Positions 37,616 to 64,000 of a DNA stretch of 64,000 bases are shown here, in pieces. How positions within the stretch are numbered: position 1 is the stretch's first letter; the number at the start of each line of letters is the position of its first letter. The stretch comes from Iocasia fonsfrigidae (GTDB taxonomy: Bacteria > Bacillota > Halanaerobiia > Halanaerobiales > DTU029). The translations under genes were made by a program, and so were the position numbers. The notes under the pieces are model-generated. The model saw only the letters and a program-made list of their open reading frames with translations, had not been told where the DNA came from and did not search any database. The stretch spans positions 662,137-726,136 of the forward strand of contig NZ_CP046640.1 of assembly GCF_017751145.1 (NCBI RefSeq), given 5' to 3'.

Positions 37616-38035
37616 ATGCTTACCCCCAGTCTTGAAGATTATTTAGAAGAAATATATCGTTTTTCTCGAGAATTAGGATTTATTAGGATTACTGATGTAG
37701 CTAATAAACTTGATGTTTCACTTCCTTCTGTCAATAAGGCAGTAAAAGTTCTTTCAGAAAAAGGGTATCTTGATTATATACCTTATAAAAATATTGCTTT
37801 AACAGATAAGGGGTCTGAACTGGGGGAATTCCTTGTTGACCGAAATCAAATGTTACAAAAGTTTTTAGAAACAATAGGAAGCAAAGTTGATAAAGAGGTA
37901 GAAGCAGAAGCCATGGAACATTATTTGTCTAAAGAAACGGTTAATGCCATGACTATGGTTGTTAATTTTTTTGATAAAAATCCTAATATTCAAAATAAGC
38001 TAATTAAATTTCAAGAAGAATTTAGGAAATCCTAG
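37616..38035 (+). CDS. DtxR/MntR-family metal-dependent regulator
   Basis: A 139-aa protein: N-terminal winged helix (SLEDYLEEIYRFSRELGFIRI, DVANKLDVSLPSVNKAVKVL) and helical dimerisation/metal-binding domain (EAEAMEHYLSKETVNAM). No C-terminal SH3 domain, as in MntR-sized members. It lies tail-to-tail with the feoAB locus, so it probably controls iron or manganese genes. Confidence 0.92.
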   Translation: MLTPSLEDYLEEIYRFSRELGFIRITDVANKLDVSLPSVNKAVKVLSEKGYLDYIPYKNIALTDKGSELGEFLVDRNQMLQKFLETIGSKVDKEVEAEAMEHYLSKETVNAMTMVVNFFDKNPNIQNKLIKFQEEFRKS

Positions 38036-38061
38036 TATAACTCAGATGATACCTAAGAGAT

Positions 38062-39462
38062 TTATAGAAATAAATTTATTAACTGTACTACTAGCAAATT
38101 AACAATAATTGCAATAACGGTTGTTAGTATAAAAGTAAAAACTGCCCATTTAGTACTTCCAGTTTCTTTGCGAATTGTAAGTAGGGTAGTTCCACAAGGG
38201 AAATGTAATAAAGAAAATAACATTGTTGATAAAGCTGTTACCCAAGTCCAGCCATTGTTAACAAGTATATCATGTAAGGCATTGGTATTATCTGGTTCCA
38301 ACATAGCACCGGCAGATAAATAACTCATTACTAAAATTGGTATGACTATTTCATTTGCTGGTAAACCAAGGATAAAAGCTAGTAAAATTACTCCATCAAG
38401 CCCTATGAGTACGGCAAATGGATTAAGGAAATTAGATACATAATTGATTAAATTTATACCGTTAATCCCCACATTAGCAAAGACCCAGACTACCACACCA
38501 GCAGGAGCGGCTACCATGACAGCACGCCCCAGTACAAATAAAGTTCTATCTATAAATGAGCGCACTAAAATTTGGCCTAATTGTGGTTTTCTATATGGTG
38601 GTAGTTCCAGTGTAAAAGTCGATGGAACTCCCTTTAAGACTGTTTTGGACAATCCCCAGGAGACCAATAGTGTTATTGAAATACCTACTAAAACTAAGCC
38701 AACTACTATTGCTGCAGCTATAAAGGAACCATAGGTTTTGTTAACTACTGTCCCCATAAAAATACTAGCTAAAATAATTAATGTAGGGAATCGTCCATTA
38801 CAGGGGACAAAGTTATTGGTTATAATAGCTATTAACTTTTCACGTGGTGAATCAATTATACGTGCAGCTATGACACCAGCAGCATTACAACCAAATCCCA
38901 TACTCATAGTTAGTGACTGTTTTCCATGGGCACCTGATTTTTTAAAAAAATTATCTAAATTAAAGGCAATCCTTGGTAAGTATCCCAAATCTTCCATTAA
39001 AGTGAAGAGAGGGAAGAAAATCGCCATTGGCGGCAGCATAACTGAAACAACCCAGGCCATAGTTCGGTAAACTCCTAGAACCAGGATTCCATGTATCCAT
39101 TTAGGAGCATGAGCCCATACAAAAAAATCTGTAATACGTGCTTCAAACCAGAAGAGAGCTTTAGCCAACATAGCAGATGGGACATTAGCCCCAGCAATAG
39201 TTAGCCAGAATACTCCACCTAACATAAGTAGCATAATTGGGAAACCAAGTAATTTAGATGTTAAAATATCATCTACTTTCTCGCTCCATTCTGCTTTCCT
39301 TTTGCCAACAGATACACTCTTATTAGCTATTATTTCAGCAGATAAATAAATGTCTTTAACTAATTGATCTCTAAGTTTCTCTTTTTCATCTCCGTTGAAG
39401 GCATTATCTACCTGTTTGAAAATCTTAGTTATTTTATCGCTATGCTTAGTAATTAACTCCAT
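38062..39462 (-). CDS. FeoB membrane domain, separate protein
   Basis: About 466 aa from ATG 39462 (GGGGAGG 10 bases upstream). It carries the FeoB transmembrane part with two nucleoside-recognition (Gate) segments: GVYRTMAWVVSVMLPPMAIF, MEDLGYLPRIAFNLDNFF, GFGCNAAGVIAARIIDS and NNFVPCNGRFPTLIILAS. The G domain is missing and is encoded by the upstream gene, which overlaps by 17 bases, so translation is coupled. Ferrous iron uptake across the inner membrane. Confidence 0.92.
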   Translation of the reverse strand: MELITKHSDKITKIFKQVDNAFNGDEKEKLRDQLVKDIYLSAEIIANKSVSVGKRKAEWSEKVDDILTSKLLGFPIMLLMLGGVFWLTIAGANVPSAMLAKALFWFEARITDFFVWAHAPKWIHGILVLGVYRTMAWVVSVMLPPMAIFFPLFTLMEDLGYLPRIAFNLDNFFKKSGAHGKQSLTMSMGFGCNAAGVIAARIIDSPREKLIAIITNNFVPCNGRFPTLIILASIFMGTVVNKTYGSFIAAAIVVGLVLVGISITLLVSWGLSKTVLKGVPSTFTLELPPYRKPQLGQILVRSFIDRTLFVLGRAVMVAAPAGVVVWVFANVGINGINLINYVSNFLNPFAVLIGLDGVILLAFILGLPANEIVIPILVMSYLSAGAMLEPDNTNALHDILVNNGWTWVTALSTMLFSLLHFPCGTTLLTIRKETGSTKWAVFTFILTTVIAIIVNLLVVQLINLFL

Positions 39463-40258
39463 TAGTCTGAACCTCCCCTTCAGGAATTTGATCAATGCTT
39501 AAGTCGTTGTTAAAAAAATATTTTTCTATTGCTTGTAAAATAGTTTTATCTCCTTCAATAAGTCGTAATGCCAGCCATCTTAGATTAACTTTATTGGAAA
39601 TTTGGCCTATATTAGCTTTCAAAATAGGTACTATTTTCGCCACAGCTGATTCAACCTTTTCTGAATACTCTATTTTAGTTGGCTTTACTTTTATTAAGTT
39701 ATTACAAATTTTATAGGTGGTTTCTTTTAACTTATGAAGTCCTTTATTATCACGGGCTATTGTAGGTATAATAGGAATTCGTAATTCTTTTTGAAGTTTT
39801 TCAATATTTATATTTATATTTTTCCTCTTTGCTTCATCCATTAAATTTAAACATAGAATTACTTTATCAGTAAGTTCCATTACCTGAAGTACCAGATTAA
39901 GGTTCCTCTCCAAATTGCTGGCATCAGTTACTACTATAGTAGTATTAGGTTGTGCGAAACAAATAAAATCACGAGCAATCATCTCTTCAGTGGAATTAGA
40001 TAGAAGAGAATAGGTTCCAGGAAGGTCAACTAAGATAAATTCCTGATTATTATGGATAAATAATCCCTGGGCCTGTGTTACAGTTTTGCCAGGCCAATTT
40101 CCTGTATGTTGTTTTAGACCAGTTAAACCATTAAAAACAGTGCTTTTCCCAGTATTGGGATTTCCTGCTAAGGCAATTACTGGTTTATTATTTTTTGATT
40201 CAATATTAAAACTTTTATTTAGGACATTGAATCCACTTGATTCGGCTGTTAAACCCAT
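39446..40258 (-). CDS. FeoB GTPase domain, separate protein
   Basis: A 270-aa cytoplasmic G protein: G1 GNPNTGKST, switch region GLKQHTGNWPGKTV (FeoB signature), G3 DLPGTYSLLSNS, G4 LNLMDEA, then a helical spacer. Normally fused to the membrane domain; here the two halves are separate overlapping genes. AAGGAGG site before ATG 40258. It gates iron uptake. Confidence 0.94.
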   Translation of the reverse strand: MGLTAESSGFNVLNKSFNIESKNNKPVIALAGNPNTGKSTVFNGLTGLKQHTGNWPGKTVTQAQGLFIHNNQEFILVDLPGTYSLLSNSTEEMIARDFICFAQPNTTIVVTDASNLERNLNLVLQVMELTDKVILCLNLMDEAKRKNININIEKLQKELRIPIIPTIARDNKGLHKLKETTYKICNNLIKVKPTKIEYSEKVESAVAKIVPILKANIGQISNKVNLRWLALRLIEGDKTILQAIEKYFFNNDLSIDQIPEGEVQTNGVNY

Positions 40259-51026: not shown

Positions 51027-51086
51027 TAATTATATTAAGGAAAGGAAAGTGGGGGGAAGGTAATAAATTTGTCAGAGGTGGTTAGT

Positions 51087-51866
51087 ATGAATAGTTTAAA
51101 GAAGTGTGTTATTAGTCTTGTTTTATTAGCTTTGATTTTAATTTGTCTTGCAGTAAATATTTATGCTGTGGATGGACTTTTCATTTATTGTGGGGCAGGT
51201 TTAAGGAAACCAATGGAGGAAACAGCTGAACTGTTTACTGATAAATATGGAACAACTATTGATTTCCAATATAATGGTTCTGGCGCTCTGTTAAACCAGT
51301 TAATGATGTCCAGAACTGGTGATATTTATATGCCAGGTGATGTCTGGTTTATTAATGAACTTAAGGGTTCGGGTGATGAAGAGGGAAATTATATAATTAA
51401 GGATTTGCCAGTTGCTTTTCATACCCCTGTAATTGTCACCCCCAAAGGTAACCCAGCTGGAATTAGGGATATATCTGACCTTATTAAACCAGGTGTCAGT
51501 GTAATCCTGGGGGATGAAAATATAGCAATAGGTCGTATTACAGCTAAAATCTTTAAAAATATTGAGACTTATGAACAGCTTCAAGATAATGTAATTGCTC
51601 GGATGGGGACTGTTAACCAGGTAGCCCTGGCCTTGAGTATGAAACAGGCTGATGCAGGGATTATCTGGAGGGCTAACTATATTGAACTGGCTGATAGACT
51701 TGATTTGATTGAAATTGATGAAGAAATTAATGTAGTTAAAGAAATATATATAGCTGTACTGAAATTTTCTCAAAACAAAGCTAAGGCCTCTCAGTTTCTG
51801 GATTTTGTGGTCTCAGAGGGTAAGGATGTCTTTGCTAAATATGGGTACAGGATTATTAAAGACTAG
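51087..51866 (+). CDS. modA: molybdate-binding protein ModA
   Basis: About 259 aa, with a signal peptide (CVISLVLLALILICLAVNIYA). Family pattern: LFIYCGAGLRKPMEETAELF, FQYNGSGALLNQLMMSRTGD, GIIWRANY. It captures molybdate (or tungstate) for import. ATG 51087 follows AGAGGTGG. First gene of modABC, set within the nif cluster. Confidence 0.92.
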   Translation: MNSLKKCVISLVLLALILICLAVNIYAVDGLFIYCGAGLRKPMEETAELFTDKYGTTIDFQYNGSGALLNQLMMSRTGDIYMPGDVWFINELKGSGDEEGNYIIKDLPVAFHTPVIVTPKGNPAGIRDISDLIKPGVSVILGDENIAIGRITAKIFKNIETYEQLQDNVIARMGTVNQVALALSMKQADAGIIWRANYIELADRLDLIEIDEEINVVKEIYIAVLKFSQNKAKASQFLDFVVSEGKDVFAKYGYRIIKD

Positions 51867-51952
51867 AGAGTTTGAAAGTCGTAAGGGGTAGTAGTTTAAT
51901 GACTTTGAGATTTAATTACTAAAGAAAGTTCAGCTTAACTGGGGTGAATATA

Positions 51953-52759
51953 ATGAAATATAACCTTTTTAAAATATTGGTTTTTTCCGTTTTTACTATC
52001 TTTATTATTTTTCTGCTCTCTGTCTTATTTACCCCTATTATCTATAATAAGGGGCAGGCTTTATTATCTATTATCCATAATAAGGAGGTGTTTTTTGCCC
52101 TTTCATTAAGTTTAATTACTTCACTGATTTCTATTACAATTGCTACTATTATTGGTCTGCCAGTGGCTTATGTTCTGGCCAGGTATGATTTTAAAGGTAA
52201 AAGGTTATTTGATGTACTGGTAGACCTGCCTATTATTTTACCACCACTGGTTACTGGGATGAGTTTATTAATTCTCTTAGGTCCAGTATTAGGAAACTGG
52301 CTGGGTAAACTGGGTTTAAATTTTGTTTTCACCCCCTTAGGAATTATCATGGCTCAGCTAGTAGTAGCGGCACCCTTTGCTATTCGGAGTTTTAAGACTG
52401 CTTTTGCTGGGATTGATCCGACCTTTGAAAAAGCAGCTATGACCCTGGGAGACCACCATTTTATGGTTTTCAGAAGGATTACTTTACCGCTGGCTAAAAA
52501 TGGTATTATAACTGGTATTACCATGGCCTGGGCCAGGGCAGTGGGGGAATTTGGTGCTACAGTGATGCTGGCAGGTGCGACCCGTTTTAAAACAGAAACC
52601 CTGCCTATTGCTATCTACTTAAATATTGCTACAGGTAATATTGATCTGGCCATTGCTATAGCCTTAATAATGATCATATTTTCTATAATAGTATTGACTG
52701 TAATAAAAATCTTTGATAAGGATTTGTATAATTACTATGAAAAGGAACGGGGTGATTAA
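51953..52759 (+). CDS. modB: molybdate ABC transporter permease ModB
   Basis: About 268 aa with six or so helices; LSLITSLISITIATIIGLPVAY, DLPIILPPLVTGMSLLILLG and the EAA loop EKAAMTLGDHHFMVFRRITLP, ending GEFGATVMLAGATRFKTETL, typical of ModB/CysT-type permeases. Follows modA. Confidence 0.94.
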   Translation: MKYNLFKILVFSVFTIFIIFLLSVLFTPIIYNKGQALLSIIHNKEVFFALSLSLITSLISITIATIIGLPVAYVLARYDFKGKRLFDVLVDLPIILPPLVTGMSLLILLGPVLGNWLGKLGLNFVFTPLGIIMAQLVVAAPFAIRSFKTAFAGIDPTFEKAAMTLGDHHFMVFRRITLPLAKNGIITGITMAWARAVGEFGATVMLAGATRFKTETLPIAIYLNIATGNIDLAIAIALIMIIFSIIVLTVIKIFDKDLYNYYEKERGD

Positions 52760-52762
52760 TGG

Positions 52763-53443
52763 ATGACAGTTTTAGAAATTGATTTGCATAAAAAACTGGG
52801 GGGTATTCAACTCTGTCAAAAATTTGAACTGGGAAATGAAATTTTGATCTTATTTGGTCCTTCCGGTTCTGGTAAGACGACATTGCTAGATTGTATTGCC
52901 GGACTTAAATCCCCGGACAGGGGAGAAATTAAATTGAATGATCAATACCTCTTTTCCGACCAAAGGGGGATTAATCTGCCGGCTTTTAAACGAAAAATAG
53001 CCTATGTATTTCAGAATTATGCCTTGTTTCCCCACCTGACAGTTGAGGAAAATGTTATGTACAGTCTTATGGGGGATAAACAGGCAAAGAAGCCCAGGTT
53101 TAGTATAAAAAAGGTATTGGATTTATGTCAGATAAATCATCTGCAGGAACGTTTACCAGAACAGTTATCAGGTGGAGAAAAACAGCGTGTAGCTTTGGCC
53201 AGGGCTTTAATGAGTGAACCAGATCTCTTATTACTTGATGAACCCTTATCTTCGCTAGATCAAGAATTGAGTTTGCGTCTTCAGGAAGAAATAAGGCTTA
53301 TTCAGCAGGAATGGATGATTCCCTTCATCTATGTAACCCATAATCAGCAAGAAGTAGAGTATCTTGGTGATAAGTTATTATATATTAATAGGGCCTGGAC
53401 TGATTTATGTGATTGCCATGATTATAAAGTTGCCCAAACATAG
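52763..53443 (+). CDS. modC: molybdate ABC transporter ATPase ModC (short)
   Basis: A 226-aa ATPase: Walker A GPSGSGKTT, signature LSGGEKQRVALARAL, Walker B LLLLDEPLSSLD, H-loop YVTHNQQEVEYL. It lacks the C-terminal regulatory (TOBE/Mop) domain of long ModC. It ends 11 bases before nifV. Confidence 0.93.
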   Translation: MTVLEIDLHKKLGGIQLCQKFELGNEILILFGPSGSGKTTLLDCIAGLKSPDRGEIKLNDQYLFSDQRGINLPAFKRKIAYVFQNYALFPHLTVEENVMYSLMGDKQAKKPRFSIKKVLDLCQINHLQERLPEQLSGGEKQRVALARALMSEPDLLLLDEPLSSLDQELSLRLQEEIRLIQQEWMIPFIYVTHNQQEVEYLGDKLLYINRAWTDLCDCHDYKVAQT

Positions 53444-53454
53444 GGGGTGTAAAA

Positions 53455-54513
53455 ATGCAGGATGTATATTTTCTTGATACAACATTACGGGATGGTGAGC
53501 AGACAGCTGGTGTGGCTTTTTCCAGGGAGGAAAAAATACTGATTGCTAAAAAATTGGCCGGGGCAGGTGTGGATGTGATTGAGGCCGGTATACCTGTTAT
53601 GGGAGAGGAGGAAATCAATGTTTTATCTGAGATAAAGCAATTAAAACTGCCGGTAGAAATCCTGACCTGGAATAGAATGAAGATTAAAGATATAGATTGT
53701 TCTATCAGCTGTGGAATTAAAAACCTGCATATTTCAGCACCAGTCTCTGACCTCCATATTAATCGTAAACTAAAGAAAGATAGGAAGTGGGTACTGGAGC
53801 AAATATATAGGCTTGTATCTTATGCTGTTGCCAGAGGGTGTAAAGTCTCTGTTGGGGCAGAAGATGCCTCCCGGGCAGATCTGTTCTATTTACTTAGTTT
53901 TTTTCAGCAAGCTCAGCAGGCAGGGGCTAGTAGATTGAGATATGCTGATACTGTTGGTGCACTCGACCCCTTTACTGTTTACGAAAATATTTCTAAGATA
54001 AAAAAAGAATTTGAGTTGCCAGTAGATTTCCACGGGCATAATGACCTTGGTATGGCTACAGCTAATGCCCTGGCTGCTTATAAAGCAGGGGCTAAATATA
54101 TTAGCTGCACTGTCAATGGACTAGGGGAAAGGGCTGGGAATACTGCTCTGGAAGAGATTGTTGTAGCTTTAAAATACCTTCAGGGCTGTAAGATCAGATT
54201 TGATATAAAGAAATTAATGGAATTGTCAAAAATAGTGGAAAAGGCCTCAGGGAGGAAAGTGGCTGCTGGGAAGGCAATAGTCGGTCAAAGGGTATTTTCA
54301 CATGAATCTGGTATTCATGTGGATGGTTTGTTAAAAGATGAAAAAACCTATGAAATAATCCCACCGGAAGATTTGGGAAGGGTAAAAGAGTTTCTAATAG
54401 GTAAATCTTCAGGAACCAGTGCTATTATCTATCAGCATCAACAGGAAGGGAGAAAGATTGATAAGCAAGAGGCTTATACAGTATTAAAAGATCTTAGGGA
54501 AAGTTGCACCTAG
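53455..54513 (+). CDS. nifV: homocitrate synthase NifV
   Basis: A 352-aa enzyme joining acetyl-CoA and 2-oxoglutarate to R-homocitrate, the organic ligand of FeMo-co. HMGL/IPMS-family motifs: LDTTLRDGEQTAGVAF, DFHGHNDLGMATANALAA, NGLGERAGNTALEE, and HESGIHVDGLLKD. Length and cluster location favour NifV over isopropylmalate synthase. Confidence 0.94.
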   Translation: MQDVYFLDTTLRDGEQTAGVAFSREEKILIAKKLAGAGVDVIEAGIPVMGEEEINVLSEIKQLKLPVEILTWNRMKIKDIDCSISCGIKNLHISAPVSDLHINRKLKKDRKWVLEQIYRLVSYAVARGCKVSVGAEDASRADLFYLLSFFQQAQQAGASRLRYADTVGALDPFTVYENISKIKKEFELPVDFHGHNDLGMATANALAAYKAGAKYISCTVNGLGERAGNTALEEIVVALKYLQGCKIRFDIKKLMELSKIVEKASGRKVAAGKAIVGQRVFSHESGIHVDGLLKDEKTYEIIPPEDLGRVKEFLIGKSSGTSAIIYQHQQEGRKIDKQEAYTVLKDLRESCT

Positions 54514-54604: not shown

Positions 54605-55366
54605 ATGTCTGTTTTAGCAAGGGCAAGAGAGAAATTTAAAGGGATTATAATTAAAAATAATTTACTAGAGCAGGATATAATGATTAGTGCTCATGGTCTG
54701 TCAACAGAGGAGGTAATTGGAAACCCTGAAAGGAACGATTTCCCTTTGCTGCAGGGAAAAGAGGTAATGATTCAGGCTGAATTTAATGGTAGCTATGGTC
54801 AGGCTTTTACTGATCATCCCGGTAATTATCGCGGAAGTTTAAAGGATATTATTGCTTTACCGTTAGATTCTATTTATCAGCGGGCTTTATTAGTAGCTAC
54901 AATTAACAGTGTTTTACGGAGTCTTAATCTACTTGAAAAGACTGTTCACTGTAAGAATGAAGAACCGGAATTATGTGCGGCTAAAATGTTGAACTGGCTT
55001 ACTGAGCAGCCCATTAAAATAAAGGCGACTACTAAACTTGGTCTGATTGGGTTTCAGCCGGCTATTTTAGAAGAAAGCATTAAATTCTTTGGGGCAGAGA
55101 ATCTTATTTTGACAGATTTAAACCAGGAGAAGATTGGTCAAGAGCGATATGGAGTCAAGGTCTGGAGCGGAACAGAAGACAATGAGCGTTTAATAAAAGA
55201 AGCTGACTTGATTCTTTTAACAGGTTCTACCATTGTTAATGGCAGTCTGGATGGTCTACTCAAACTTCTTGATCATTATAACAAAAGATATTTTATTTAT
55301 GGTAATACTATTTCAGGAGTGGCAAGTTTACTGGAGCTGCCCTGGCTATGTTTTTATGGTAGATAA
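54605..55366 (+). CDS. DUF4213/DUF364 putative heavy-metal chelation protein
   Basis: A 253-aa cytoplasmic protein: N-terminal DUF4213 segment (about 1-90) and C-terminal Rossmann-like DUF364 (about 120-250, LGLIGFQPAILEESIKFFG, ADLILLTGSTIVNGSLDGLL, GNTISGVASLLELP). Family members lie near metal-uptake and methanogen or nitrogenase genes and are predicted metal handlers. It starts the uncharacterised locus after nifV. Confidence 0.88.
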   Translation: MSVLARAREKFKGIIIKNNLLEQDIMISAHGLSTEEVIGNPERNDFPLLQGKEVMIQAEFNGSYGQAFTDHPGNYRGSLKDIIALPLDSIYQRALLVATINSVLRSLNLLEKTVHCKNEEPELCAAKMLNWLTEQPIKIKATTKLGLIGFQPAILEESIKFFGAENLILTDLNQEKIGQERYGVKVWSGTEDNERLIKEADLILLTGSTIVNGSLDGLLKLLDHYNKRYFIYGNTISGVASLLELPWLCFYGR

Positions 55367-55456
55367 GGCTAATTTTTTTATTTAAAAAAACATGATTTTC
55401 TATAAAAGAAAATTGGTAACAAAAAATATTCTAAGATTTTAAAGGGAGAATGTCAT

Positions 55457-56515
55457 ATGATAGCAGCTATTGTCAAAAAAATTAAAGAAAATTTTAAAAT
55501 GGAAAGAGTTATTATAAAAAGACTATTAATAGCTGTATTCTTTGTTGTTTTATTATTATTATTATCGTTGTTAATGGGAAGATATCCGATCTCTATCCGG
55601 GAACTATTTGATGTTTTATTTTCCAGGATAATAGTAGTAGATAGAAGCTGGTCAGTTGTGGTTGAAACAGTAATCTTTAATATTAGACTGCCTCGGATAA
55701 TTGTCGCAGTCTTAGTTGGAATGGCTTTAGCTACTTCGGGAACGGCATATCAGGGAATGTTTAAAAACCCGATGGTTTCTCCCAGTATCTTAGGTGTTTC
55801 TGCCGGGGCTGGTTTTGGCGCCGCAGTTGCTATTTTACTATCCCTGGATATAGTAGGAATTCAAATTTTTGCCTTTCTATTTGGTATTTTGGCGGTAAGC
55901 CTGGCTTTTTCTATCAGCAGGCTTGTAAGTAAAGATAATAATGTTTCTTTAATATTGGTCTTATCAGGGATGATTGTCAGTACTTTATTTAGTTCGCTTA
56001 TTTCTCTGACTAAATATGTAGCAGATCCAGATGATAAATTGCCGGCTATTACTTTCTGGCTAATGGGGAGTTTTTCTTCTGTTGGTTTTAAGGATGTCTG
56101 TACAATTATTGGGCCGATTTTACTTGGCTTGATTTCTTTATATTTACTAAGCTGGAAACTGAACATTTTATCTTTTGGTGAAGAGGAGGCTCAGTCTGTC
56201 GGGGTTAATACGAATAGATTAAGAATGATTGTTATATTATCATCTACTTTAATTACAGCTTCGGCGATCTCGGTTAGTGGTTTGATAGGCTGGGTGGGGT
56301 TGATAGTACCTCATCTGGCAAGAATGATTGTCGGTTCAGATCACCGGGTTTTAATACCGACTTCAATGCTTATGGGTGGAATGTATTTGTTAGTGGTAGA
56401 CGACCTGGCTCGAAGCATAATTTCAATTGAAATACCAATTGGGATTTTAACTTCGTTGATTGGGGCTCCGTTTTTTGTCTGGTTATTGTTGAAATCAAGG
56501 AGGGGATGGTCATGA
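55457..56515 (+). CDS. FecCD/BtuC-type ABC transporter permease
   Basis: A 352-aa inner-membrane protein with about ten helices: GRYPISIRELFDVLF, IRLPRIIVAVLVGMALATSG, GMFKNPMVSPSILGVSAGAG, and the C-terminal GWVGLIVPHLARMIVGSDHR. Type II importers carry iron-siderophores, haem, cobalamin or, in MolBC, molybdate. The substrate is not fixed by sequence. Confidence 0.95.
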   Translation: MIAAIVKKIKENFKMERVIIKRLLIAVFFVVLLLLLSLLMGRYPISIRELFDVLFSRIIVVDRSWSVVVETVIFNIRLPRIIVAVLVGMALATSGTAYQGMFKNPMVSPSILGVSAGAGFGAAVAILLSLDIVGIQIFAFLFGILAVSLAFSISRLVSKDNNVSLILVLSGMIVSTLFSSLISLTKYVADPDDKLPAITFWLMGSFSSVGFKDVCTIIGPILLGLISLYLLSWKLNILSFGEEEAQSVGVNTNRLRMIVILSSTLITASAISVSGLIGWVGLIVPHLARMIVGSDHRVLIPTSMLMGGMYLLVVDDLARSIISIEIPIGILTSLIGAPFFVWLLLKSRRGWS

Positions 56516-57294
56516 AACTGGAGCTTAAAGATGTAGTCTGCGGATATGGTCCAAATGTTATTGTTAAACAGGCTTCAATGGGAGTAGCCGAAGGAGATGT
56601 CTTATGTTTGCTGGGTCCAAATGGAGTAGGCAAGACTACCTTGTTTAAGAGCATTTTAGGATTTTTAAAATTACTTGATGGTGAGATACTACTTGGCGGT
56701 AAGAATATTGCCGGTTGGTCCCGAAAATTATTTGCCCGGGAAGTAGCATATGTACCACAGGCTCATAACACTCCTTTTCCATTTAAAGTGCTTGATGTTA
56801 TTTTAATGGGGAGGACTCCATATCTTAGACCTTTTTCGGCACCGGGTAAGGAAGACCGGAATCTCGTCAAAAATATTATGGCTAGTCTGGATATCTTAGC
56901 GTTGGAGAATAAACTATATACAGAAATAAGTGGTGGGGAGAAACAATTGGTATTGATTGCCAGAGCACTCGCCCAACAGGCCAAAATACTTGTAATGGAT
57001 GAACCTACTTCAAATCTTGATTTTGGCAATCAAATAAAAGTTTTAAATCAAATCCGTAAGTTGAGTAGAGAGAATTTAGGGATAATAATGACTACTCATT
57101 TCCCTGACCATGTCTTTATCTGTGCTAACAAAGTAGCAATAATAAGAGATGGGTTTTTACATAAAATAGGGAATCCGGAAACTGTAGTAACCAGAGAGAA
57201 TTTGAGGGAAGTTTATGGGGTTAATGTAAGTGTGGAGAATATAAGTTTTACCAGTGGTTATAAGGCAAAAGTCTGTGTACCAGAGGTAGTATAA
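56512..57294 (+). CDS. FecE/BtuD-type ABC transporter ATPase
   Basis: About 260 aa: Walker A GPNGVGKTT, signature ISGGEKQLVLIARAL, Walker B ILVMDEPTSNLDFG, H-loop TTHFPDH. ATG 56512 follows GGAGGGG with 6-base spacing and overlaps the permease stop by 4 bases. Partner of the permease upstream. Confidence 0.95.
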   Translation: MKLELKDVVCGYGPNVIVKQASMGVAEGDVLCLLGPNGVGKTTLFKSILGFLKLLDGEILLGGKNIAGWSRKLFAREVAYVPQAHNTPFPFKVLDVILMGRTPYLRPFSAPGKEDRNLVKNIMASLDILALENKLYTEISGGEKQLVLIARALAQQAKILVMDEPTSNLDFGNQIKVLNQIRKLSRENLGIIMTTHFPDHVFICANKVAIIRDGFLHKIGNPETVVTRENLREVYGVNVSVENISFTSGYKAKVCVPEVV

Positions 57295-57428
57295 TATTTC
57301 TATGTGTTGCTGGTTTTATTTAAAGTTACAGGGCTTGAAATATAGATCTACACGATTTAAGAATTACTTGTTCTTAGATTATATGTTAAAAATCTATAAG
57401 TAAATAAGAAAATAAGGAGGAGTTTATA

Positions 57429-58466
57429 ATGAGGAGGATAACGATAGTAGTTAGTATTGTTTTAGTGATGTTAATGGCTATACCAGCAGTGGCAGTGGAA
57501 TTTAAGATAGGAAAGTTCGAAATAGAAAATACATATACTGAGACTGATGATGCTGACAGTAGTAGTGAGACAGTATTTAAGACAACGTTGATTTTGAATG
57601 AAAAGGTAGATGAGCGGGTGAATCTCTTTGTTATGACCCGTCTGGATGGGGAATTTAATCAGGCACAGGGACCAAAAGATGCTGGTACAGACGTATTTGT
57701 CAGAAAAGGCTGGTTAAATATAAAAAATGCCATTGGACCGGTGGATTTAAGGGTAGGTAGAATGGATGCGGCGGCTGCTAATTATTTATTATATAATATG
57801 AAGTCAAAATATGAATTTGCCAGAGCTGCTTATAGTAATGATAAATTTGCTATTAAGGTAGGTCATAATATAGATAGTGATGAGAAGACGCTATTTAGTG
57901 AAATCAAAGGTATTTATTTAGGCCCAGTTGATGCAGTAACTTTAAATTATGTCGATGCTGATTTTGCAAATATTGATTATAATGGTTATAGCATTAATTT
58001 TCTTAAAGAGTTTGATCCACTGAAAGCTGATTTAACTTATTTAAAGGTAGAAAACGGAGCACTTAAACCAGAGGGCTATGATCTGAGGTTTTCTACTGAT
58101 AAATTAGTTTCTGGGGTAAATCTTTTTTTAGAATATGCGGCAGGTGAACAGGGTATTGCTGTTGATAGGCATAATTTCCAGAAAGATGATTCTGTTTTCG
58201 TGGAAAGTGAGCTTAATAATGCTTATGATATCAAGATGATCAAGCCTGGCTTTATTACTGATCTTGGTGATAGACTGAAGCTGGATTGTGCTTATGCTTT
58301 CTATGAAGCTGATGATTCTGATGCCAGTGATGATTATTTGGATCTGATCTGTACTTATAAATTAAGTAAAAAAAGTTATCTGGAAGTAGAATATGAAAAT
58401 CATAATTTTGATAATACTGGCACAGATAATACTATTATCACTACCAAATTGGGTGTAAATTTTTAG
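57429..58466 (+). CDS. beta-barrel outer-membrane protein (putative porin)
   Basis: A 345-aa exported protein with a signal peptide (ITIVVSIVLVMLMAIPAVA). The mature part alternates hydrophobic and polar residues in short strands with aromatic ends, lacks helices, and finishes in TTKLGVNF; a C-terminal Phe is the usual barrel-assembly signal. Acidic loops (DDSDASDDY) could attract cations. Its place between importer genes suggests it is the outer-membrane entry for the same substrate. Not a TonB-dependent receptor in size. Confidence 0.8.
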   Translation: MRRITIVVSIVLVMLMAIPAVAVEFKIGKFEIENTYTETDDADSSSETVFKTTLILNEKVDERVNLFVMTRLDGEFNQAQGPKDAGTDVFVRKGWLNIKNAIGPVDLRVGRMDAAAANYLLYNMKSKYEFARAAYSNDKFAIKVGHNIDSDEKTLFSEIKGIYLGPVDAVTLNYVDADFANIDYNGYSINFLKEFDPLKADLTYLKVENGALKPEGYDLRFSTDKLVSGVNLFLEYAAGEQGIAVDRHNFQKDDSVFVESELNNAYDIKMIKPGFITDLGDRLKLDCAYAFYEADDSDASDDYLDLICTYKLSKKSYLEVEYENHNFDNTGTDNTIITTKLGVNF

Positions 58467-58560
58467 ATGTTTAGCAGTTTTGAGTAGATCCAATTACGAT
58501 GAAAATCATGTCAATATAAATGAAAGTTAAATATTAAGCATCAGAATTGGGGTGTTAAAA

Positions 58561-59175
58561 ATGGGTAAAAGTGCTTTAGAATTTGATCAGATAGCCCGGG
58601 AAGTCTTTGCTCCTATTTATTCAGTGATTGTCAAGCAAATCAGGGATAAAACAGGTATCAGTTCAGGAATATGTGTGGATGTTGGTAGTGCTGGAGGATA
58701 TCTGGGTATTGAGCTGGCTCGGATTAGTGAGCTATATGTTTATTTATTGGATAAATCTGAAGAGGCTTTAACTATTGCGGATAAAAATATTGTTGCTGGT
58801 AAATTTCAGAAAAGAATGGAGACTATGCTGGCAGATGTTCATAAAATACCACTTTCCGATCAGTCTGTTAATTTGGTAATAAGCCGGGGTTCGATATATT
58901 TCTGGGAAGATCAGGCTAAGGCATTAAAGGAAATCTATCGAATTCTTACTCCCGGTGGTGTTGCCTACATTGGAGGCGGTTTTGGTCGGAAAGATTTAAA
59001 AGACCAGATTACCATTGAGATGAAAAACAGGAAGCAAGACTGGCGTGGGGGCAGAAGTGAAAATTCCTGTACGGATTGTGGTGAGGTTTTTGTTAGGGCT
59101 TTACGTCAGGCTGATATCCCAGAATTTCAGATTGTTAAAGAAAAGGCTGGTCTCTGGATCTATATCAAGAAATAA
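58561..59175 (+). CDS. class I SAM-dependent methyltransferase
   Basis: About 204 aa. Motif I CVDVGSAGGYLGIELA, acidic residue at YLLDKS, motif II ADVHKIPLSDQSVNLVISRG, and post-motif LKEIYRILTPGGVAYIGGGF. Methyltransferase_11 type. Cys pair in NSCTDCGEV could bind metal. Its target is unknown; inside a metal-uptake locus it might modify a metallophore or cofactor. Confidence 0.88.
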   Translation: MGKSALEFDQIAREVFAPIYSVIVKQIRDKTGISSGICVDVGSAGGYLGIELARISELYVYLLDKSEEALTIADKNIVAGKFQKRMETMLADVHKIPLSDQSVNLVISRGSIYFWEDQAKALKEIYRILTPGGVAYIGGGFGRKDLKDQITIEMKNRKQDWRGGRSENSCTDCGEVFVRALRQADIPEFQIVKEKAGLWIYIKK

Positions 59176-59270
59176 TGTTAATCTGGAAATATGATTAAAT
59201 AGTTAGCGGTATTTCTTGGATAGTTTGCTAGTAAATCAGATTGATTACTTATTCCACATCAAGGGGAGTG

Positions 59271-60377
59271 ATGATAGTGTTAAAGAAAAGAAGATTAATT
59301 ATTTTAGGAATTGTTCTGATATTGATTTCTTCACTGGCGCTTTGTAAAAATAATCAGGTAAAGGCTGCTAGTCGTACTATAACTGATATGGCAGGGAGAA
59401 CTTTAATAATTCCCGAAAAAGTTTCTAAAGTTTATTCTGTAAATCCGATTGGTACAATTTTATTGTATACTCTGGCTCCTGATCGCTTGGCTGGTCTGAA
59501 CTGGAAAATTACTCCTGCTGAAAGGAAATATACCACCAGGGAATACCAGCAGCTACCGGTTTTAGGTGGCTGGTTTGGTAATAATAATACTGGTAACCCT
59601 GAAGAGATTTTAAGTGCTCAGCCAGAGATAGTCATCAGTGTTGGCGATATAAATAAGACAGCAATTACTACTGCTGAAAAGAGGCAAAATCAACTGGGTG
59701 TCCCGGTTTTATTGCTGGATGGTCATTTAGAGAAACTGGCTGATTGTTATCAATTAATTGGTAAAGTAATTGGCGAAGAAAAACGAGCCCAAGAGCTGGC
59801 CAATTATTGTATCAAGGCAATCAATGATATTAAAGAAAAAGTAGCTGGTATACCTCAGGAGAAACGTGTCCGGGTTTACTATGCTGAAGGAACTGATGGA
59901 TTACAAACAGATCCACAAGGTTCACGTCATGCTGAAGTAATTGATTATGCTGGAGGGATTAACGTAGCTGACGTGCCATTAAAACAGAGCTGTTATGGGC
60001 GTAGCCAGACATCGTTAGAACAGTTGATGTTATGGAATCCGGATCTAATTATTGTCTGTTTTGATCAGGGTTTCAGTAAAGAAAACAGCAGTTATAATAA
60101 AATATTGTCTGAGCAAAACTGGAAACAGCTTAAAGCAGTCAAAAACAAGCAAGTATATGAAATACCGGCTGCTCCTTTTAACTGGTTTGACCGGCCACCT
60201 TCTGTTAACCGTATTATTGGATTAAAATGGCTGGCTAATTTATTATATCCTGATATTATGAATTTAGATATAGAGGTAGAGGTAAGGAATTTTTATGAAA
60301 AGTTTTATCACTATAGCTTATCAAAGCAGGAAACCAAGGAATTACTTGTAAATGCTAAAGCGGATAGTCTTCAGTAA
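59271..60377 (+). CDS. periplasmic binding protein (FepB/BtuF/MolA type), copy 1
   Basis: About 368 aa. N-terminal signal LIILGIVLILISSLALC; then ITDMAGRTLIIPEKVSKVYS, typical of class III binding proteins, and WNPDLIIV...APFNWFDRPPSVNRIIGL. The last motif and the C-terminal FYEKFYHYSLSKQE recur in the next gene. Partner of the type II importer upstream. GTG 59277 is an alternative start. Confidence 0.93.
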   Translation: MIVLKKRRLIILGIVLILISSLALCKNNQVKAASRTITDMAGRTLIIPEKVSKVYSVNPIGTILLYTLAPDRLAGLNWKITPAERKYTTREYQQLPVLGGWFGNNNTGNPEEILSAQPEIVISVGDINKTAITTAEKRQNQLGVPVLLLDGHLEKLADCYQLIGKVIGEEKRAQELANYCIKAINDIKEKVAGIPQEKRVRVYYAEGTDGLQTDPQGSRHAEVIDYAGGINVADVPLKQSCYGRSQTSLEQLMLWNPDLIIVCFDQGFSKENSSYNKILSEQNWKQLKAVKNKQVYEIPAAPFNWFDRPPSVNRIIGLKWLANLLYPDIMNLDIEVEVRNFYEKFYHYSLSKQETKELLVNAKADSLQ

Positions 60378-60465
60378 TTCACTTATGAATGATTAAAGTG
60401 AAGATAAATAATAAGATGTTTGAGAGAATTCCTGATTTTTTTAAAAAATGGGGGTGGGAGTAAAG

Positions 60466-61569
60466 ATGAAAAAAAGGATAGTTTTATTATTCGTGATTTT
60501 AATTTCTTTTATTTTGATGAATGTCGGGGTAATTGCTGCCGAAGATTCTCAGGCTGATAAGCAGAAATTGATAACTGATATGGCCGGTAGAGAGCTAATG
60601 GTTCCTACTAAAATCAATAAAATATTTGCGGCAAATAACACTGGAGCAGTGCTAGGTTATTGTCTGGTTCCTGATAAATTGATTGGCTGGAATAGTAAAC
60701 TCAATAATAATATGAAAAAGTATATTAAAGGTAAAGCTACTTCTTTGCCGGTAATGGGCACCCTATATGGAAATGCTAAATCAAAAGCAAATTTAGAAGA
60801 GATTGCTCTCACTGCTCCGGATATTATTTTGTTGATGTCTCCTAAAATTACTAAAAAAGTGATTAATAGTGCTGATAAGATAACAGGTAAGCTGGGTATT
60901 CCGGTTATTGTTATTGATGGTCAGTTTAAAAATACTGGAAAGACCTTAGAATTTTTAGGAGGTTTACTCGGTGAAAAAGAACGTGCTGAAAAGTTAAAGG
61001 ATTATTTTGAGAATGTCTATCAAAAAGTTATTACTATAGCAGTTGACATTAAACAAGAGCAGCGGGTTAATGTCTATTATGCACGTGGCGATAAAGGGTT
61101 AACCACTGAAATAAAGGGTTCCCCTAATACAGAAATATTACGTTTGCTTAGGGCCAGGAATGTTGTTGATTTGAATATTTCTGCTGAAAACACTTCCGGG
61201 CTGGCTGGTAATTATACGGTAACAATGGAACAGTTATTGCTCTGGAATCCAGATTTAATAATTGTTGGTAGCGGATTTTATACTGCAAGCGGATTAGTAG
61301 ATATTATAAAAGAAGATAAAAGCTGGCAAAGCTTGAAGGCGGTAGCTAATAGACAGCTCTTTTTTATTCCCTGTGCTCCTTTTAACTGGATTGACCGTCC
61401 CCCTTCTTTAAATAGAATAATAGGTTTGGTCTGGGCGGCAGAGAATATCTACCCCGATCTTTACAACTTCGATCTTGCAGAAGAGATTAAGAAATTCTAT
61501 AAGCTCTTTTATCACTATGACTTGACAGAAACTGAACTAAATAAACTGCTTGACTGTAGACTAAAGTAA
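60466..61569 (+). CDS. periplasmic binding protein (FepB/BtuF/MolA type), copy 2
   Basis: About 367 aa; signal peptide IVLLFVILISFILMNVGVIA. Same architecture as copy 1: LITDMAGRELMVPTKINKIF, WNPDLIIVG, APFNWIDRPPSLNRIIGLVW, FYKLFYHYDLTETE. A tandem duplication with clear divergence, suggesting two related ligands for one importer. ATG 60466 follows GGGTGGGAG. Confidence 0.93.
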   Translation: MKKRIVLLFVILISFILMNVGVIAAEDSQADKQKLITDMAGRELMVPTKINKIFAANNTGAVLGYCLVPDKLIGWNSKLNNNMKKYIKGKATSLPVMGTLYGNAKSKANLEEIALTAPDIILLMSPKITKKVINSADKITGKLGIPVIVIDGQFKNTGKTLEFLGGLLGEKERAEKLKDYFENVYQKVITIAVDIKQEQRVNVYYARGDKGLTTEIKGSPNTEILRLLRARNVVDLNISAENTSGLAGNYTVTMEQLLLWNPDLIIVGSGFYTASGLVDIIKEDKSWQSLKAVANRQLFFIPCAPFNWIDRPPSLNRIIGLVWAAENIYPDLYNFDLAEEIKKFYKLFYHYDLTETELNKLLDCRLK

Positions 61570-61589
61570 TTTTAAGTTGGAGTGATTTT

Positions 61590-62279
61590 ATGAAACTGAT
61601 TACTGTATCTGGACCACCTTCAACCGGAAAAACTTCGGTAATAATTAGGGTGATTGAGCATTTAAGAAAGAAAAATATTAAGATTGGGGTTATAAAATTT
61701 GACTGTCTAACAAGTGATGATGATCTCTTATATAAAAGAAAGAACATCCCTGTACAGGTAGGTATTTCTGGAGGGCTATGTCCAGATCATTTCTTTGTTA
61801 GTAATATCGAAGAATGTTTTACCTGGGGGTTGAATAAGGGACTAGACATTATGATTACAGAAAGTGCTGGTTTGTGTAACCGTTGTTCACCTTATCTCAA
61901 AGGGCCACTGGCAGTTTGTATAATTGATAACCTGATGGGGATTCATACCCCGAAAAAGATCGGACCGATGCTCAGGTTTGCTGATCTCGTAGTGATTACC
62001 AAAGGAGATATAGTCTCCCAGGCAGAACGGGAAATCTTTGCTTACCGGGTTAAAGAAGCCAGTCCCCGGGCCAAAATTTTGTTTATCAATGGAATTACCG
62101 GCCAGGGAACTTTACATTTAGCTGATTTATTTCTGGAAGGAAAGGAAACAGTAGAGCTAAATAATAGTAGACTCCGTTTTACTATGCCAGCAGCTTTATG
62201 TTCGTACTGTCTGGGAGAGACAAGAGTGGGAAAGGATTTTCAAATAGGAAATATTAAGGATATTAATTTTCAAAGGTAA
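61590..62279 (+). CDS. HypB/UreG-like GTPase with CxxC motifs
   Basis: A 229-aa P-loop protein: Walker A GPPSTGKTS, switch-like GVIKFDCLTSDDD, ESAGLCNRCSPYL, LVVITKGDIVSQ (NKxD-like TKGD). The C-terminus has CSYCLGETRVGKDFQIGNI. HypB and UreG load metals into enzymes in a GTP-dependent way; the CNRC and CSYC pairs are candidate metal sites. The client enzyme is unknown. Confidence 0.85.
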   Translation: MKLITVSGPPSTGKTSVIIRVIEHLRKKNIKIGVIKFDCLTSDDDLLYKRKNIPVQVGISGGLCPDHFFVSNIEECFTWGLNKGLDIMITESAGLCNRCSPYLKGPLAVCIIDNLMGIHTPKKIGPMLRFADLVVITKGDIVSQAEREIFAYRVKEASPRAKILFINGITGQGTLHLADLFLEGKETVELNNSRLRFTMPAALCSYCLGETRVGKDFQIGNIKDINFQR

Positions 62280-62310
62280 AATAAATAAAATAGAATCGGT
62301 GGTGAGCTGA

Positions 62311-63084
62311 TTGCAGCAAGAAAATAGATTTAAGCTAACGATAATCGGAGGCTATAATAAGAATGATGAGCCGGAGGATCTAACACTGACTATTTCTGCC
62401 GGGGAGGTTGTGTCTATTGTCGGCCCAACTGGTTCAGGTAAGAGCCAGTTGTTAGCAGATATTGAATGGATGGCCCAGGGGGATACACCTACCGGCCGGA
62501 GGATATTAATTAATGACCAGATTCCTGATTCTGAAATGCGTTATGATATTGAGTCTAAACTGGTGGCTCAGTTATCTCAGAATATGAATTTTGTAATGGA
62601 TGTTACTGTTCAAGAATTTGTTCAGATTCACGCCAGTAGTAGGAAAATTAAAAATAGCGGTAAACTGAGTACTAACATTATTGAAAAAGCAAACCAGCTA
62701 GCCGGCGAAAAATTTACGGCAGATACTCCGCTAACTTCTCTGAGTGGAGGTCAGTCCCGGGCTTTGATGATAGCTGATACAGCCTATCTTAGTAAATCGC
62801 CGATTGTGCTAATTGATGAGATAGAGAATGCTGGGATAGATAGAAAGATCGCCCTAGATTTGTTGGTAAAACGGGAGAAGATAATCTTGCTGGCCACCCA
62901 TGATCCAATACTGGCTCTTTTGGGAAATAGAAGGCTGGTTATAAAAAATGGAGGTATTTATAAAATTATTGAAGCTACGGTGGCTGAAAGAAAGAACCTG
63001 GAAATACTTGAAAAATTGGATAGAAAATTAATGTTGATGCGGAACAGGCTTAGACATGGGGAAAAAATTAATTATTGTGGGTAG
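62311..63084 (+). CDS. ABC-type ATPase without neighbouring permease
   Basis: A 257-aa ATPase: Walker A GPTGSGKSQ, signature LSGGQSRALMIAD, Walker B IVLIDEIENAG, H-loop ATHDP. No membrane partner gene is next to it in the window, and the DEIENAG Walker B region differs from the DEPTSxLD of importers. It may be a soluble ATPase working with the GTPase and the following binding-protein-like gene. TTG start with GGTGGTGAG. Confidence 0.88.
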   Translation: MQQENRFKLTIIGGYNKNDEPEDLTLTISAGEVVSIVGPTGSGKSQLLADIEWMAQGDTPTGRRILINDQIPDSEMRYDIESKLVAQLSQNMNFVMDVTVQEFVQIHASSRKIKNSGKLSTNIIEKANQLAGEKFTADTPLTSLSGGQSRALMIADTAYLSKSPIVLIDEIENAGIDRKIALDLLVKREKIILLATHDPILALLGNRRLVIKNGGIYKIIEATVAERKNLEILEKLDRKLMLMRNRLRHGEKINYCG

Positions 63085-63097
63085 GAGTGAGTTTATA

Positions 63098-64000
63098 ATG
63101 TCAGAATTTAAAAATTGTAATCTGCTAGCATTAATGCCATGCCCATTAAAGGTTCCATTTGAAAGATTGATTACAACATATTTGAGGAAAAAGGAAAGAG
63201 AGGGGGTTTATCTTGACTGTACTATAGTTGCTAATGCTAATACCCATCTGTCTTTTTATGAAGAGATTGATAATTTTCAGGATATAAAAGAAATTCCTGA
63301 TATTATTATCTCTCCTGGCCTGAATAATCTTTTCTATCATGACTTTTATGATAAATTTATTAGGCCTGGTTATTTTAGAAATCCGATCAAATATGATTTT
63401 GAAGATAATTTTGTGGAGATCGGTTATCAGGATAGCAGGAACAATTATACAATGTTTACAATGAATCTGCTGGTTTTAGTTGTTAATACTGCTAGATTAA
63501 AAGGAGCCCGGGTACCATTGAAATTTGCTGACCTTTTAGCTGATAATTATTATCAGAATGTTGCTATTAGAGGAAGAGATGAATTTATCTGTGAAACTGT
63601 ATTACTGAATTTTTATAAAGAATATGGCTTAGCAGGGATAAAAAAACTATCTTATAACGTTCGGGAAGGCTTACATCCTTCACAAATGGTTAAAAAGGCT
63701 AAAAGTAATAGTGAAGAGGATGAAGCCATCTATGTAATGCCCTATTTTTTCGCTAGAACTTTAATTAATCATAAAAAGATAGAGGTTATCTGGCCGGAAG
63801 ATGGGGCTTTGATCAACGCAATCTCCATGTTAGTCAAAAAAGATATTACACTTGAAGTTAAGGAACTGGCTAGATATATAGCAGGTCCAGAGCTCGGGAA
63901 TCTTTTTGCCAGGGCTGCTTTTCCGGTAGCTAATCCGGCAGTTGAAATCAATGTTTATAAAAAGAATAAGTTTAAGTGGTTAGGTTGGGACTTTATTCGT
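63098..64000 (+). CDS. periplasmic-binding-protein-like protein without signal peptide, partial
   Basis: At least 301 aa, open to the window end, from ATG 63098 (AGGAGTG site). It begins MSEFKNCNLLALMPCPLKVP with no signal peptide, so it appears cytoplasmic. DIIISPGLNNLFYHDFYDKF, ARVPLKFADLLADNYYQNVA, and GPELGNLFARAAFPVANPAV resemble type 2 periplasmic-binding folds (FbpA/ModA-like). Two Cys near the N-terminus (residues 7 and 15). Follows the lone ATPase by 13 bases. Function unknown. Confidence 0.75.
   Translation, partial: MSEFKNCNLLALMPCPLKVPFERLITTYLRKKEREGVYLDCTIVANANTHLSFYEEIDNFQDIKEIPDIIISPGLNNLFYHDFYDKFIRPGYFRNPIKYDFEDNFVEIGYQDSRNNYTMFTMNLLVLVVNTARLKGARVPLKFADLLADNYYQNVAIRGRDEFICETVLLNFYKEYGLAGIKKLSYNVREGLHPSQMVKKAKSNSEEDEAIYVMPYFFARTLINHKKIEVIWPEDGALINAISMLVKKDITLEVKELARYIAGPELGNLFARAAFPVANPAVEINVYKKNKFKWLGWDFIR

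Follow-up and report, generated by a model that had tools for sequence, protein, structure and literature searches.

Behind the nitrogen fixation (nif) cluster of Iocasia fonsfrigidae, at the end of a 64,000-nucleotide stretch of contig NZ_CP046640.1 (positions 662,137 to 726,136 of the forward strand; hereafter the window), lies a run of genes that, with an even chance in our view, adds Mol-type uptake and handling of molybdenum (Mo) to the nif cluster; it ends in a cytosolic module that resembles metallochaperones. The new part, judged from sequence, is the last three genes, a trio that is widespread in anaerobes and encodes a HypB/UreG-like GTPase, a soluble ATP-binding cassette (ABC) ATPase and a cytosolic protein related to substrate-binding proteins (SBPs). 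An initial annotation of this DNA had proposed a metal locus tied to nif. That proposal is partly supported, with Mo as the best candidate because the permease is of MolB type, relatives of the DUF364 protein adjoin mod genes, and the trio is found within or next to nif and mod genes in loci of Orenia, Pelosinus and Oryzomonas; the implied specificity for nitrogenase, however, is not supported.

The cytosolic trio

The first trio protein is a GTPase that matches PF02492 (43.6 bits against a cut-off of 20.7) and has a P-loop of the form GPPSxGKT. The family match bears out its earlier description as HypB-like, although it is neither HypB nor UreG proper, scoring far below the equivalog cut-offs for hypB (40 of 121.2 bits) and ureG (34 of 204.2). 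Seven metal-type residues, C64, H67, C96, C99, C110, C204 and C207, are invariant over the 36 aligned rows; C39 occurs in 35 of these. The CPH motif of UreG binds nickel; in a phmmer alignment C64-P65 falls on the Cys-Pro of that motif, with the histidine of the window protein one residue further on.

The ABC ATPase of the window is a short form, without the N-terminal part of approximately 80 residues that is found in most relatives. The Orenia metallireducens protein is also short; judged by length, clade-A copies (defined below) have the N-terminal part and group-B copies are mixed. Pfam identifies an N-terminal DUF1858 in the clade-A member L055; the same domain was suspected by eye in the long ABC ATPases and was absent by Pfam in the single one tested for it.

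The third protein belongs to SBP_bac_6 and, by hydropathy only, has no signal-like stretch in its first 45 residues (1.25, compared with 2.99-3.10 for the exported proteins), in keeping with its earlier description as a signal-less binding-protein-like gene. C29 is conserved in 42 of 43 rows and H207 in all 43. Its AlphaFold model has a predicted local distance difference test score of 90.5, and the nearest folds are ferric-binding proteins, led by KfuA (Z 21.3, 282 aligned residues, root mean square deviation 3.2). Judging by the aligned ranges, C29 may lie near His9 of FbpA. The hexose-phosphate binder AfuA is tied with the ferric-binding proteins (Z 20.7), and metal-citrate binders follow at a Z of about 19.

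Distribution and neighbourhoods of the trio

Searches with the GTPase recovered 80 loci from named genomes of archaea and several bacterial phyla, with identities of 58-81%. A GTPase frame was called in 75 of these; the ABC ATPase is its immediate neighbour in 67 and no more than two genes away in 72, and in 57 the cytosolic binding protein lies at most three genes off. Since the GTPase relatives span archaea and several phyla and yet have the ABC ATPase nearby in 72 of 75 loci, the trio is more than a chance association. No description of it was found in a literature search with little coverage of subscription journals, and the accessible part of PMC6147048 contains nothing on it.

A tree of 99 GTPases resolves a clade A of 42 rows (support 80; support 99 for a 39-row core), with the rest made up of 51 rows (support 80), five outgroup-like rows and L045. 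In a second tree, to which three rows were added, clade A and its core received 85 and 98 but the remaining rows only 11, and they are therefore termed group B rather than a clade. Clade A includes a second copy from I. fonsfrigidae itself, Halanaerobiales relatives, Peptostreptococcus, Treponema and Cetobacterium. This second trio (G000:C1:124999-127932; L189 7000-9933) has a RACo/ASKHA-type activator gene upstream, identified by Pfam, and downstream a gene that by eye resembles rubrerythrin.

The two groups keep different company. Genes for a FecCD permease, an SBP related to exported binding protein 1 of the window (SBP1), modA/B/D, Mop, DUF364 or nif lie near 27 of 46 named group-B loci and none of 33 named clade-A loci (p = 5e-9, uncorrected for kinship), whereas hybrid cluster protein genes accompany 8 of the 33 clade-A loci and none of the 46 group-B loci. 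Most mod, FecCD and SBP labels in the fetched loci derive from small custom profiles and were not individually checked. Among individual loci, the window GTPase pairs with the O. metallireducens copy (support 100), whose trio lies between modB and nifV inside the nif cluster. In Pelosinus propionicus the trio is found between nifD-, nifK- and nifB-like genes and modCBA-like genes, and in an Oryzomonas genome beside nifH, modD (above cut-off) and modA-like genes. In three Bacteroidales-type loci a Mop-like and a TrmO-like gene follow the trio pair, preceded in two by a TonB-receptor-type gene; Pfam and NCBIfam checks covered Mop (TIGR00638 above cut-off) and the receptor in L028 and TrmO in L090. 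Three labels call for caution: the 'Mo' label of L100 was dropped, as the gene encodes a quinolinate phosphoribosyltransferase beside NadA, and those of modD in L051 (115.4 of 178.85 bits) and modB in L024 (169.8 of 182.6) are doubtful.

It is conceivable, if improbable, that two units simply stand side by side here, a Mo importer with its DUF364 protein and, unrelated to it, a trio for activating or repairing metalloclusters, for example in nitrogenase or hybrid cluster protein. Trio and importer do occur separately, given that 27 of 46 group-B loci contain neither a FecCD nor an SBP1 gene in the DNA fetched, and none of the 33 clade-A loci contains either. Set against this, 19 of 46 group-B loci from archaea and several phyla have one or the other compared with 0 of 33 in clade A (p = 6e-6), and since the fetched loci measure 3-21 kb some partners of the trio may lie outside them.

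More distant members of the family were also seen. Second, divergent pairs of GTPase and ABC ATPase genes are found in L045 (4340-8682) and L101 beside ABC permease genes of nitrate/taurine-type appearance. Further GTPases of the family (about 190-330 bits), representing additional subfamilies in the phylum, are present in L208-L221, in most of these loci adjoining an ABCx-like ATPase.

The importer and the DUF364 protein

Among solved structures, the chains of the Protein Data Bank, the window permease is closest in alignment score to MolB (HI1471, 264.7 bits) and not to BtuC (138.6 bits), with HmuU (190.9) and FhuB (178.1) between them. In a 35-row tree it falls with MolB, itself on a long branch, in a group of 24 rows (support 100/99) that excludes BtuC, HmuU, BhuU, FecC, FecD and two other permeases of the same genome. 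This group contains 12 of the 15 rows labelled as trio-linked or mod-linked, the window included.

These relationships bear on a cobalamin or other corrinoid importer, cobalamin having been named in the initial annotation as an example of a different established substrate. The top-scoring NCBIfam models would favour it, being BtuC for the permease (242 of 461 bits) and a corrinoid ATPase for the ATPase (188 of 537), but both scores are far below cut-off and BtuC is outside the permease group. Moreover, there is no Rfam match at gathering scores, and so no cobalamin riboswitch, in window positions 40000-64000. The genome has a separate importer of B12 type in another region, where genes for a binding protein, a FecCD permease, an ATPase and a TonB receptor, close to one for a tetrapyrrole methylase, sit under a cobalamin riboswitch (85.9 bits; L191 9066-9249). 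Cobalamin is thus disfavoured, and we regard a corrinoid of any kind as very improbable. A SAM riboswitch is also present in this genome (L190 4994-5097).

Relatives of the DUF364 protein of the window type occur in 53 of the 299 genomes of a phylum sample, I. fonsfrigidae included, and larger stretches were fetched from 20 of the other 52. A modA-, modB- or modC-like gene adjoins DUF364 in ten of these 20 loci (L178-L187), and of the ten ModB-like permeases there, nine score above the cut-off of a curated Mo model. The modB equivalog is passed by L178, L179 and L181, the looser Mo_ABC_porter by L179 and L181-L187, and neither by L180. A gene for a molybdopterin-binding domain is next to DUF364 in L169 and four places on in L174. 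In L184 the genes run SBP, ATPase, FecCD, canonical DUF4213-DUF364, modC, modB, modA and window-type DUF364, and in the nif cluster of genome G345, which shares its genus code with G347, a DUF364 protein 68% identical to that of the window is encoded between modB and modA.

Relationship to nitrogen fixation

The search for conserved co-occurrence with nif, which the initial annotation had suggested, gave a group-B excess overall, whereas the more stringent comparisons were not significant. In a first set of genomes 24 of 28 with a group-B trio were nif-positive compared with 3 of 21 in clade A; in a held-out set, for which a nif link of group B had been predicted beforehand, the counts were 10 of 16 and 4 of 12 (two-sided p = 0.25, not significant). 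Over both sets (77 genomes) they are 34 of 44 and 7 of 33 (p = 1e-6, uncorrected for kinship), or 31 of 44 and 5 of 33 by the curated nifD cut-off alone, five sub-cut-off matches having been counted as positive (L027, 638.8 bits; L028, 428 at a contig end; L047, 641.9; L032, 636.9; L084, 533.1). These counts leave out L045, which is in neither group, and do not recount L076 and L102, whose genomes are shared with L071 and L077. Loci with importer, Mo, DUF364 or nif links are in nif-positive genomes in 16 of 20 cases, unlinked loci in 25 of 57 (p = 0.008), but independent tree pairs on the same label gave a mean of 2.0 for and 0.3 against, of 7, which is not significant.

A role in nitrogenase alone is rejected. 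Many genomes with a homologue of the GTPase are without nifD above cut-off (27 of 50 in one set and 15 of 29 in another, nifD being present in the other 23 and 14; one genome is common to both sets). Conversely, of the 27 genomes of the even phylum sample with nifD above cut-off (27 of 299), three have a GTPase of at least 360 bits outside clade A and two a strong match to the cytosolic protein. It follows from this low carriage, together with the nifD-less carriers, that the trio is neither restricted to diazotrophs nor required by them. An association is nevertheless seen in the same sample, where 3 of 8 genomes with such a GTPase are nif-positive compared with 24 of 291 others (p = 0.03); two of the eight, G248 and G057, are placed loosely, and weaker members of the family in 24 further genomes are uncounted.

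Within the class of I. fonsfrigidae nifD is present in 9 of 59 genomes, and the nif-type cytosolic protein in that of the window and in G347 only. At the site between nifV and modA that the complete trio occupies in G347, G345 retains a 32-residue remnant of the cytosolic protein (G345:C1:280028-280123; L127 8029-8124), which as read from the sequence marks the loss or exchange of the trio module at this spot.

NifQ is the Mo donor for the iron-molybdenum cofactor (FeMo-cofactor) in Azotobacter, as stated in the accessible part of PMC11605450. Of the 42 nif-positive trio genomes tested, 40 have no match to NifQ (PF04891), I. fonsfrigidae among them; a match was seen in two, whose loci bear the titles Tolumonas and Proteobacteria. 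This absence fits a role for the trio as a replacement without proving it, and may merely follow taxonomy. In trio genomes of Pelosinus and Sporomusa (G375:C78, G395:C1 and G413:C105), distant nifD-like genes (about 70-165 bits) form long arrays.

What metal might the locus handle?

The substrate of the importer is inferred from homology and neighbourhood, and several observations weigh against Mo. Neither exported binding protein is more than weakly similar to MolA (69.2 and 45.7 bits); 4pag, for which we know of no ligand, is their best solved match (203.6 and 158.2 bits), and several positions conserved across the SBP1 set differ in MolA. The trio-linked permeases of L047, L079 and L095 lie outside the MolB group, and this group also takes in permeases of relatives in which no Mo link was seen. 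In eight of the 20 fetched DUF364 loci (L170, L171, L172, L173, L175, L176, L177 and L188) no adjacent mod-type or Mo gene was noticed. To these may be added the ferric-binding folds nearest to the cytosolic protein and the low support for group B in the second tree. Finally, modB above cut-off is absent from 14 of 33 clade-A genomes, and therefore the trio family as such is not a Mo system. It may be that the trio handles different metals in different groups, or serves a step common to iron-sulphur and iron-molybdenum-sulphur clusters.

A route for iron or an iron chelate is an alternative that we consider unlikely. Here the importer would take up an iron complex and the trio would supply iron for iron-sulphur clusters, including those of nitrogenase and, in clade A, of hybrid cluster protein. 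Most members of FecCD and PF01497 transport iron complexes or corrinoids. The folds closest to the cytosolic protein are those of ferric-binding proteins, and clade A combines proximity to hybrid cluster protein genes with genomes in which modB above cut-off is missing. On the other hand, the window permease groups with MolB, group B is tied to mod, Mop and DUF364, the hexose-phosphate binders match the ferric ones in the fold list, and FeoB and an iron-dependent repressor gene upstream of nif provide another iron route.

A system for tungstate or vanadate, or one that accepts any such oxyanion, has a small chance of being correct. MolA also binds tungstate, according to the available part of PMC4031551, and a published analysis of DUF364 neighbourhoods, likewise available in part, reports links to iron, tungstate, vanadium and molybdate transport (PMC2954201). 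The locus, however, sits behind a Mo-type nif cluster with nifE, nifN, nifV and modABC.

If Mo is indeed the metal, molybdate or a small Mo complex would enter beside ModABC by way of the porin, both exported binding proteins and the importer formed by the MolB-type permease and its ATPase, with the DUF364 protein and the methyltransferase acting either on the Mo species or on its ligand. In the cytosol, the conserved Cys and His of the SBP-fold protein would bind the metal, and the Cys-rich GTPase and soluble ABC ATPase would transfer it, in this organism to FeMo-cofactor assembly. We infer which metal is involved, how the steps are ordered and that nitrogenase is the recipient; the gene identities, families, conserved motifs and conserved neighbourhoods are observed. 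A complete route from the outer membrane to the cytoplasm, as first proposed, is putative, the barrel being a weak generic porin match.

A bolder proposal, which we hold to be rather unlikely, is that the group-B trio is a new NTP-driven metal delivery machine for anaerobic diazotrophs without NifQ, in which the SBP-fold protein holds Mo and the GTPase and soluble ABC ATPase load FeMo-cofactor assembly; the sister clade would do a like job, perhaps with iron, for hybrid cluster protein. The conserved cytosolic module, with its metal-type motifs, is part of the nif cluster in one relative and follows that cluster in the window, and it is a candidate Mo handler where NifQ is missing. The sister clade, found near hybrid cluster protein, may point to a metal tool in general use among anaerobes. 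Should the metal prove to be iron, the module would remain a metallochaperone system of which the literature search found no description.

Organisation of the locus

The nine features originally listed behind nifV are real genes, each confirmed by an open frame and Pfam, and with the importer's own ATPase they make ten (Table 1). They directly follow nifV as had been described, on the same strand and with short gaps (-29 to +134 bp from nifV to the last gene). This spacing is the one hint at their joint transcription, a pattern scan having added nothing informative. The last gene extends 63 bp beyond the window, and a gene for a GntR/FCD regulator follows 96 bp downstream of it on the same strand.

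Upstream, the nif genes are ordered nifH-I1-I2-D-K-E-N-B-fdx-modA-modB-modC-nifV, named by similarity and order, with nifD and modB assigned by curated models; modB scores 196.4 bits against the TIGR02141 cut-off of 182.6 and also passes that of TIGR01581. Further upstream of nif, at window positions 37616-40258, are an iron-dependent repressor gene and FeoB as overlapping G-domain and permease genes. Shortly downstream of the locus are very long YD-repeat-like repetitive frames (L002 14340-20000 and L003 1-14459), one of 3808 residues.

Table 1. Genes of the locus and its immediate upstream neighbours, in window coordinates
Feature	Position	Strand	Basis or remark
modA, modB, modC (separate Mo-type importer, inside the nif cluster, just upstream)	51069..53443	+	modB TIGR02141 and TIGR01581; modA SBP_bac_11; modC similarity and position
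nifV-like homocitrate synthase, last nif gene	53455..54513	+	name from similarity to relatives
DUF364 protein, family found near mod-type genes	54605..55366	+	PF04016 40.9 bits, cut-off 23
FecCD permease, MolB-type	55457..56515	+	PF01032 301.4 bits; MolB match; tree
ATPase of FecCD importer	56506..57294	+	PF00005; 10 bp overlap with permease gene
Outer-membrane porin-like barrel	57429..58466	+	PF13609 28.8 bits, cut-off 27 (weak)
Class I methyltransferase	58552..59175	+	Pfam; relatives in 7/46 group-B trio loci
Exported binding protein 1	59241..60377	+	PF01497 (Peripla_BP_2), N-terminal hydrophobic stretch
Exported binding protein 2	60448..61569	+	PF01497 (Peripla_BP_2), N-terminal hydrophobic stretch
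Trio gene 1: HypB/UreG-like GTPase, motifs CPDH, CNRC, CSYC	61590..62279	+	PF02492
Trio gene 2: soluble ABC ATPase without conserved permease partner	62311..63084	+	Pfam
Trio gene 3: cytosolic SBP_bac_6 protein, cut at window end	63056..64000 (gene end 64063)	+	Pfam, hydropathy

Comparison with known systems

The trio shares features with several established metal-handling proteins and also differs from them. Like the HypB/UreG (G3E) metallochaperones, its GTPase is a P-loop protein of PF02492 with C64-P65 placed on the UreG Cys-Pro, but it has the additional invariant motifs CNRC and CSYC and a constant ABC ATPase partner. SufC offers a parallel for a soluble ABC ATPase in a metal-centre setting (PMC9164220, from the part that is accessible); compared by description, SufC and its like among the soluble ABC ATPases that serve cluster assembly differ in their partners, SufB/SufD as opposed to a GTPase and an SBP-fold protein. 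The cytosolic protein has the fold of the ferric-binding proteins FbpA and FutA, a fold found also in binders of ligands other than iron, but is without their signal-like stretch and has the conserved Cys29 and His207. If the trio delivers Mo it would fill the role of NifQ with another kind of protein, PF04891 having no match in the I. fonsfrigidae genome.

The window DUF364 protein passes PF04016 and so resembles the DUF364/DUF4213 proteins (PF04016, PF13938; structure 3l5o), from which it differs in showing part of PF04016 and no match to DUF4213. The closest parallel for the importer is MolBC-A of Haemophilus influenzae (HI1470-HI1472), with which it shares a FecCD permease that is the best solved-structure match, an ATPase and binding proteins of PF01497. 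MolBC-A is a low-affinity molybdate importer that works beside ModBC-A (PMC4031551, in its accessible part), and in the window, too, a ModABC set stands alongside, just upstream. The mol cluster of H. influenzae was deleted as HI1469-HI1473 in the portion of its description available. In contrast to MolBC-A, the window importer has two binding proteins, each weakly MolA-like, and is tied to nif, a DUF364 protein, a porin, a methyltransferase and the cytosolic trio.

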